Source: an uncultured Selenomonadales bacterium (GTDB lineage: Bacteria > Bacillota > Negativicutes > Selenomonadales > Selenomonadaceae). Taken from it: a stretch of 64,000 nucleotides of DNA. Shown one piece after another: positions 3,533 to 50,937 of this stretch. The stretch is taken from positions 57,145 through 121,144 of the forward strand of contig CAMUZG010000001.1 of NCBI GenBank assembly GCA_947165145.1, written 5' to 3'. Each line of letters starts with the position of its first letter. Position 1 is the stretch's first letter. The position numbers and the translations under genes were made by a program. The notes under the pieces are model-generated. The model was not told the DNA's origin, did no database searches, and worked only from the letters and a program-made list of their open reading frames with translations.

Positions 3533-3668
3533 AGTCTTTTGTTTAATCCGGCAGTGACGGTTCTTTTTCCGTCTGACGTTAAGTCTTGTCAGCCGAAAAA
3601 ATTCCTCGTCACATGATAATTTGAATTCGCCAACAGACCCTAGTCCCAAAAATTTTGGAGGAAAAGCC

Positions 3669-4616
3669 TTGAAGATTGCGTTCTTTGATTCGGGAATCGG
3701 CGGACTGAGCGTCCTGCACCACGCAATGAAAATTCTGCCGCACGAAGAATTTATCTTCTTTGCGGACGAAGACAACGTTCCTTACGGCACAAAATCGCCG
3801 CAGGAAGTCTTGCGTTTCGTCGACACGGCTTTTGAATTTTTAATCGCGCAGGACGTTTCAGCAATCGTCGTGGCGTGCAACACGGCAACATCAGTCGCGG
3901 TAAAAAAAATGCGCGAAAAATATTCGCTACCGATAATCGGCATGGAGCCCGCGTTGAAAGTCGCGCTCGACACTTTTCCCGACCGAAAAGTTTTAGTGGC
4001 TGCCACGGCAATAACAATCACGGGCGAAAAAATTCGTCGGCTCATCAGCAGATTGCACGCGGAAAATTTGACGGAACTTAAAGCGTTGTCGCGGCTAGTC
4101 GAATTCGCGGAGCGGCAAGAATTTTCGTCGGCGGCAGTGGAAAATTATCTGCGCGGCGAACTGAGCGATTGCGATTGGGAAAAATTTTCGTCGCTGGTAT
4201 TGGGTTGCACGCACTTCAATTACTTCAAGGACACGTTCAGAAAAATTTTGCCTGCTCACGTAAAAATTTTGGACGGGAACGCCGGCACCGTCAACGAACT
4301 AATCAGACGAACGAAATTGAATCCTGTGACGACTTCAAGCGCGGTCAACGACTTCGGCAGTTGCAACATTGCGGCGCGCTCACTGGATGCAACGTCACGT
4401 TGCCCTGCTCACGTAAAAATTTTGGACGGGAACGCCGGCACCGTCAACGAACTAATCAGACGAACGAAATTGAATCCTGTGACGACTTCAAGCGCGGTCA
4501 ACGACTTCGGCAGTTGCAAATTTTTTTATTCGGGACGACTCGTGACGGACGCCGCCGAGCTTGCCGCACTGAAAAAATTTTTGCAACGTCTCGACGAAAT
4601 GGAGGACATATCATGA
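3669..4616 (+). CDS. murI: glutamate racemase with in-frame 51-aa internal duplication
   Basis: FDSGIGGLSVLHHAMK, FADEDNVPYG, VVACNTATSVA, LVLGCTHF motifs; TTG start 3669 after GGAGG. Confidence 0.9.
   Translation: MKIAFFDSGIGGLSVLHHAMKILPHEEFIFFADEDNVPYGTKSPQEVLRFVDTAFEFLIAQDVSAIVVACNTATSVAVKKMREKYSLPIIGMEPALKVALDTFPDRKVLVAATAITITGEKIRRLISRLHAENLTELKALSRLVEFAERQEFSSAAVENYLRGELSDCDWEKFSSLVLGCTHFNYFKDTFRKILPAHVKILDGNAGTVNELIRRTKLNPVTTSSAVNDFGSCNIAARSLDATSRCPAHVKILDGNAGTVNELIRRTKLNPVTTSSAVNDFGSCKFFYSGRLVTDAAELAALKKFLQRLDEMEDIS
4251..4366 (+). repeat. 116-bp direct repeat copy 1 inside murI
   Basis: cctgctcacgtaaaaattttggacggg...ttcggcagttgcaa, repeated at 4404-4519 (offset 153 bp). Confidence 0.97.
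4363..4403 (+). repeat. 41-bp dispersed element (copy A), between the murI direct repeats
   Basis: gcaacattgcggcgcgctcactggatgcaacgtcacgttgc; 37/41 identical to 50897-50937. Confidence 0.85.
4404..4519 (+). repeat. 116-bp direct repeat copy 2 inside murI
   Basis: Matches 4251-4366 with no difference seen; 153-bp offset keeps frame. Confidence 0.97.
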
Positions 4617-50777: not shown

Positions 50778-50896
50778 TAATTAAGCACTCCTTTTTAATG
50801 CGCAATGCGTAATGTGCACTGCTTAACGGATAAAAATCATGTAGCTAGAAAGCCGAATGGCTTTCGTATGAACGCGGTGATAATGCTAGATTGGTC

Positions 50897-50937
50897 GCAA
50901 CATTGCGGCGCGACCGTTGGATGCAACGTCACGTTGC
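50897..50937 (-). repeat. 41-bp dispersed element (copy B), overlapping fusA stop codon
   Basis: gcaacattgcggcgcgaccgttggatgcaacgtcacgttgc on + strand; 37/41 identical to 4363-4403. Confidence 0.85.

Follow-up and report, generated by a model that had tools for sequence, protein, structure and literature searches.

The duplicated segment of murI

The 64,000-nucleotide stretch analysed in this work (termed the window; contig CAMUZG010000001.1 of assembly GCA_947165145.1, from an uncultured Selenomonadales bacterium) carries near its start murI, a glutamate racemase gene in which a short repetitive element (E) lies in frame between two copies of a segment of the gene itself (X), as listed in Table 1. 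The frame was assigned to glutamate racemase by the Pfam family Asp_Glu_race (4e-16) and by glutamate racemases of the PDB, matched down to 4e-32. As the first-pass annotation had read, positions 4251-4366 recur at 4404-4519; the two 116-bp copies are 100% identical, which is far beyond chance, and their period of 153 bp corresponds to 51 codons and keeps the reading frame. The spacer at 4367-4403 (37 bp) had been quoted exactly, and the roughly 265 amino acids (aa) expected of the racemase without its duplication compare with 264 aa found. The 41-bp element that the annotation had placed between the copies is indeed dispersed, but it measures 66 bp and reaches into the repeat, being made up of the last 29 bp of repeat copy 1 and the whole spacer. 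As the repeat ends in the opening 29 bp of E, its 116 bp resolve into 87 bp of murI and 29 bp of element, and copy 2 therefore finishes in a 3'-truncated E.

Table 1. Positions of murI, the parts of its duplication and a further copy of E within the window.
Feature	Position	Strand	Basis or remark
murI (glutamate racemase) frame, TTG start	3669..4616	+	315 aa with duplication, 264 aa minus one 153-bp unit
X copy 1, duplicated murI segment, 87 bp	4251..4337	+	repeat comparison
Element E, full 66-bp copy, read in frame within murI	4338..4403	+	profile match positions 1-66, 61.6 bits
3' tail GGATGCAACGTCACGTTGC (common across phyla)	4385..4403	+	X copy 2 directly abuts its last base
X copy 2, 87 bp, identical to X copy 1	4404..4490	+	repeat comparison
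Probable 3'-truncated E (first 29 nt), end of copy 2	4491..4519	+	profile match; murI continues from 4520
Second E in window, long form (CTAG-hairpin, E body, tail)	50845..50937	+	no detectable flanking duplication

The 51 extra residues of the murI frame are located behind the catalytic region, for the duplication begins at residue 195 and both racemase cysteine motifs (VACNTA and LGCTH) lie before it. The second glutamate racemase for which the annotation had suggested a search was not found in the draft genome (G000, a Quinella-like Selenomonadaceae metagenome-assembled genome, MAG, of 1.94 Mb in 43 contigs, 83% complete), where both matches were pieces of this murI. Since 153 is divisible by 3 and E has no stop in the frame concerned, the one racemase detected in the genome remains readable. 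Single-copy alleles, which it had proposed to look for in other isolates, do exist in relatives: among 25 congener murI loci compared, those that were read through are single-copy, about 255-271 aa long and free of E, and one locus (L068) has an in-frame stop.

It can be presumed with moderate confidence, on sequence grounds, that 4491-4519 is a truncated E and not native linker, because the 29-nt piece alone matches the E profile (E-value 0.0036, in the same register as the remainder of E in copy 1) and the linker in this murI is about 4 aa longer than in relatives. In ungapped comparison the piece agrees with other E copies at 18/29 (median) to 23/29 positions and with the murI linkers of relatives at 16-19/29.

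Structure and distribution of element E

The whole draft genome was searched with positions 4251-4519, giving 59 matches, almost all of them to query positions ~84-155, and this genome, with its roughly 60 copies of E, was read in stretches around the matches. Aligned copies define E as a 66-bp sequence composed of [A/G]RCGCGG, a moderately variable middle, GGCGCGACC and YTGGATGCAACGTCACGTTGC. Its 3' end is fixed and forms a hairpin, and its 5' end is less fixed, being either a full hairpin form or a start at the CGCGG box. The tail consists of a GGAT head and the hairpin GCAACG-TCA-CGTTGC with a 3-nt loop, and variants that keep the pairing through compensatory stem changes were recovered (CCAGCGTCACGCTGG, CAAGCGTCACGCTTG, CAAACGTCACGTTTG, GCAGCGTCACGCTGC and GGAGCGTCACGCTCC). 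A long form of ~92 nt, starting with CTAG and a second hairpin, is also present in Quinella-type genomes. Inverted hairpins are carried at both ends by the long Quinella-type and the Verrucomicrobia forms, and the short form is without the left one. In 16 distinct long-form sequences, 97% of the cells of the 5' helix and tail are paired, with 14 double changes, values reached by none of 500 shuffles. As pairing is kept via compensatory changes beyond the level of shuffles, the comparison indicates that the hairpins are under selection as single-stranded structures, whether of RNA or of DNA. No Rfam family reached its gathering score against E, and no overall gene-ward bias in the orientation of E was detected.

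With up to 1 mismatch, the 18-nt tail was found in 20 of the 37 genomes of the genus sample (63 copies in the genome of the window and 121 in G010; reversed control 0), and a 67-bp E was matched in 18 of 61 genomes, all within this genus; of the 36 congeners sampled, about half have E. The exact 19-nt tail extends much further, to Clostridia, Ruminococcaceae, Fusobacteriaceae, Planctomycetaceae, Verrucomicrobia, Methylacidiphilaceae, Paracaedibacteraceae (an alphaproteobacterium) and other Selenomonadaceae among the matches listed. Tail counts with up to 1 mismatch allowed were 72 in Propionigenium maris DSM 9537 (G061), 57 in a Planctomycetaceae MAG (G065), 45 in a Verrucomicrobia MAG (G071), 30 in G072 and 27 in G073. 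The abundance of the tail can be taken as real, as control counts were zero in every genome; E bodies vary by lineage while the tail stays constant, a constancy across phyla that is partly search-selected, since exact-match scans favour conserved tails. Most genomes in the survey are MAGs, and several arrays lie at contig ends. In P. maris the copies of E are placed between two T-runs, of which the one before E belongs to a terminator; a coding origin of these copies was rejected, as their frames are broken and they follow terminators.

The 18-nt tail was further recovered in 36 stretches of IMG/VR contigs, and the full tail was not found in annotated phage and plasmid collections. In the viral contigs (L264-L299) nothing but the tail can be made out; it often lies antisense, at a distance of a few to 40 bases upstream of a start codon, and some of these tails are near phage structural genes. 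Other placements of E were recorded beside these. Directly upstream of murI, window positions 3551-3650 hold an E-less copy of a larger dispersed repeat with 42 matches in its own genome, and about nine other copies of that repeat hold E inside (for instance L011, L018, L019, L023 and L040). In two genomes (L179 at 4103 and L259 at 746, in E orientation) the end of E coincides exactly with the first base of a tRNA-Phe-like gene (GCCTCGGTAGCTCAG...).

Duplications flanking E and their possible origin

At about 60 distinct sites, surveyed in congeners and other genomes with inner array units set aside, E stands between two direct copies of local DNA, in the arrangement X-E-X. X differs by locus and is unrelated between loci. 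It measures between about 15 and over 100 bp, and the repeat periods include 76, 97, 108, 120, 121, 127, 129, 130, 135, 139, 146 and 147 bp and more. These loci are often arrays, (X-E)2 to (X-E)5, and many X segments take in the beginning of a gene, with its ribosome-binding site, start codon and opening codons. The pattern is also seen in congeners and Clostridia, and in a Verrucomicrobia genome E opens with an inverted tail hairpin and sits between 19-bp copies of TCGACAAGCTCAGGATGAC. Nor is murI the only gene to survive in frame: readable frames also run across X-E-X at L112 (463 codons) and at L120 (447 codons, HemW-like by its YFGGG motif).

The second X copy begins exactly at the 3' end of E. 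In an offset test of 81 sites with a score of at least 20, the best anchor coincided with the end of E in 49; in another 20 it fell on the -6 limit of the offsets tried, as is to be expected of inner array units, whose homology continues into the preceding E. The survey controls are not clean inside arrays, as positions near E fall in the same duplications; more weight belongs to the offset count. The first base of X (n=60) is C at 51 sites, T at 8, A at 1 and G at 0, and the base preceding the first X copy is C in only 5 of the 60. Overlaps of the 5' junction with the 5' box of E were noted as AGCG at L033 and as ~11 bp at L025.

Insertion with target duplication is supported by the single-copy, E-less murI of relatives together with the ~60 like-built loci. 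From these comparisons, E is probably a non-autonomous interspersed element, not described before, which produces long target duplications on insertion and by which murI was struck. The first-pass annotation had envisaged either a template switch or a small inserted element whose target duplication was unusually long; this agrees in part with the ~60 like loci and with the alleles of relatives, for an element larger than claimed (66 bp, with a 92-bp form). It had also called the event very recent, as the 100% identity suggests, but this is not proven by it: identical units also sit in arrays whose outermost X has diverged, and amplification or homogenisation must accordingly occur later as well.

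It can be proposed that E would be copied into a site cut or stalled on one strand between D and C (D being any base other than C), where the 3' end of a free E molecule would be joined to the X side and synthesis would proceed to the 5' end of E. The other junction, a return to the other strand at the same site, would form at a distance of tens of bp, in some cases where the target shares a short homology with the 5' end of E, so that the X between the two junctions would be duplicated. Recombination between X copies could afterwards enlarge X-E-X sites to (X-E)n. Such a mechanism would resemble target-primed retroposition or end-to-end template jumping, and we do not file it under either because RVT_1 is missing from many E-rich genomes. 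A bolder version, which we put forward tentatively and regard as rather doubtful, is an undescribed element class in several phyla and some of their viruses that would propagate through a free molecule with a fixed hairpin 3' end (GGATGCAACGTCACGTTGC), onto which a polymerase stopping between D and C would jump and from which it would jump back, each insertion duplicating tens of target bases, as a counterpart of retroposition by short interspersed nuclear elements (SINEs) with an enzyme other than standard reverse transcriptases (RTs) or Y1 transposases. For murI, the tidiest history is a pre-existing truncated E followed by a new one. The target would probably already have held the 29-nt remnant in its linker when the new E arrived, the 116-bp duplication would be X plus this remnant, and the 5' junction would have formed within the shared 29 nt.

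Several observations weigh against insertion with target duplication. The murI arrangement can also be read as an (X-E)2 array that lost the 3' part of its second E; both histories start from E. A clear duplication is present at only about half of the E copies, flanking duplication was found at none of 42 viral-contig tails, and none of RVT_1, Y1_Tnp and Cas1 is present in all E-rich genomes.

Candidate enzymes, rival explanations and known systems

RVT_1 was not found in G005, G010, G016, G020, G026 and G029 (Pfam model only; divergent RTs beyond the model were not tested), nor in 5 of 9 other E-carrying genomes (G062, G065, G070, G071 and G074). The sole RT of the genome of the window (L133 1501-2094, contig C27) adjoins a formylglycine-enzyme/lectin-like frame and is probably part of a diversity-generating retroelement. 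Cas1 was not found in G000, G005, G010, G016, G026 and G029, and CRISPR-type integration was set aside, Cas1 being without match in several E-rich genomes. RT, Y1 transposase and Cas1 were all rejected as general machinery on account of their absence from several E-rich genomes. As the congener drafts are 59-89% complete, single gene absences are weak; the joint absence is meaningful. Within 3 kb of E, ordinary housekeeping or phage genes were met; apart from these no protein family recurred beside E, and no parent transposase sharing its ends was found.

The pattern could also arise if E were a fixed hairpin repeat that does not insert, with replication blocked or broken at its 3' end and slippage upstream making the tandem duplications. 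We consider this unlikely, although the duplications all end exactly at the tail hairpin and the (X-E)n arrays look slippage-like, as does the reiteration of E-tail fragments directly after E at L184, L204 and L207 (for example repeated CTGCGTCACGTTGC), which is reminiscent of polymerase stutter. Slippage from X-E-Z predicts X-E-X-E-Z and not X-E-X with X instead of Z after the last E; native gene sequence nevertheless follows E at the single-E loci L025 and L033 and, as a diverged third X, at L009, L012, L014 and L028, and no E at all is carried by murI orthologues. An assembly or library artefact, by repeat collapse and expansion or by chimeric reads, might be suggested by the several E arrays at contig ends of this MAG; it is very improbable for the pattern as a whole, and less likely than not at murI itself, because the same pattern recurs in many independent assemblies, comprising MAGs and genomes from different laboratories, and because the X copies are not all alike, the bodies of E have diverged along lineages and stem changes are compensatory.

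Repetitive extragenic palindromes (REPs) and bacterial interspersed mosaic elements (BIMEs) with their REP-associated tyrosine transposases (RAYTs) are nearest to E in architecture, a head plus a short palindrome (Nunvar et al. 2010, PMC2817692), which the 3-nt-loop tail of E fits. Like E, they are short dispersed repeats, present in tens to hundreds of copies mostly near gene ends and sometimes in inverted pairs, with 2-4 nt in the middle of the palindrome, and the inverted hairpin at the other end of the long forms resembles a BIME. It is nevertheless quite improbable that E is a REP-like element moved by a RAYT or other IS200/IS605-type (Y1) transposase with its long direct repeats as by-products. 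The head is GGAT in place of GT(A/G)G, phyla share one tail, at odds with the coevolution of each REP with its own RAYT, and E inserts inside genes and is flanked by exact long direct duplications. Y1_Tnp (Pfam01797) was not found in the E-rich congeners G000, G005, G010, G016, G020, G026 and G029, nor in G062, G072 and G074; a RAYT was not detected in many E-rich genomes, and the RT and Y1 loci examined had no tail nearby within 4 or 5 mismatches.

Among other systems, E resembles the SINE-type retroposons of eukaryotes in a fixed 3' end, a 5' end that is fixed less strictly and shows short homology, a target duplication of variable size and a base preference at the cut. The fixed 3' end and the variable-length target duplication were confirmed for E, which differs in its bacterial hosts, in duplications longer than usual for SINEs and in that no RT was found in many E-rich genomes. 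Rickettsia palindromic elements are in-frame insertions in proteins, as E is inside a functional protein gene, whereas at E the flanking gene sequence is also duplicated, and host and sequence are unrelated. Integron attC sites were rejected, X being a local gene and not a cassette and the 3' end of E misfitting GTTRRRY. Target duplications of miniature inverted-repeat transposable elements (MITEs) are short and of fixed length, in contrast to the variable, about 15 to more than 100 bp of E, which moreover has inverted hairpin ends in some forms only and for which no parent transposon was found. MITEs and other small mobile sequences (reviews PMC2229807, PMC10969869) come nearest to E in behaviour, being non-autonomous, small and dispersed, with target duplication. 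The 15-mer tail hairpin was not found on either strand in the searched paper texts, and broader searches returned nothing matching.

For a 19-nt sequence to be kept exactly in Firmicutes, Fusobacteria, Planctomycetes, Verrucomicrobia and viral contigs, while the bodies attached to it vary by lineage, some recognition factor must be common to them, apparently one that has no name yet. The coupled long duplications create new repeat arrays, in-frame protein expansions (murI, L112, L120) and contig breaks in rumen genomes. With dozens of copies in a cultured host, Propionigenium maris DSM 9537, the question is directly testable. Apart from E, window positions 24925-53549 hold many arrays with a 7-bp period (AATTAGG / TAATTCC), several of them as opposite-orientation pairs ~45 bp apart (for example 30891/30936, 32951/32997 and 35231/35268).
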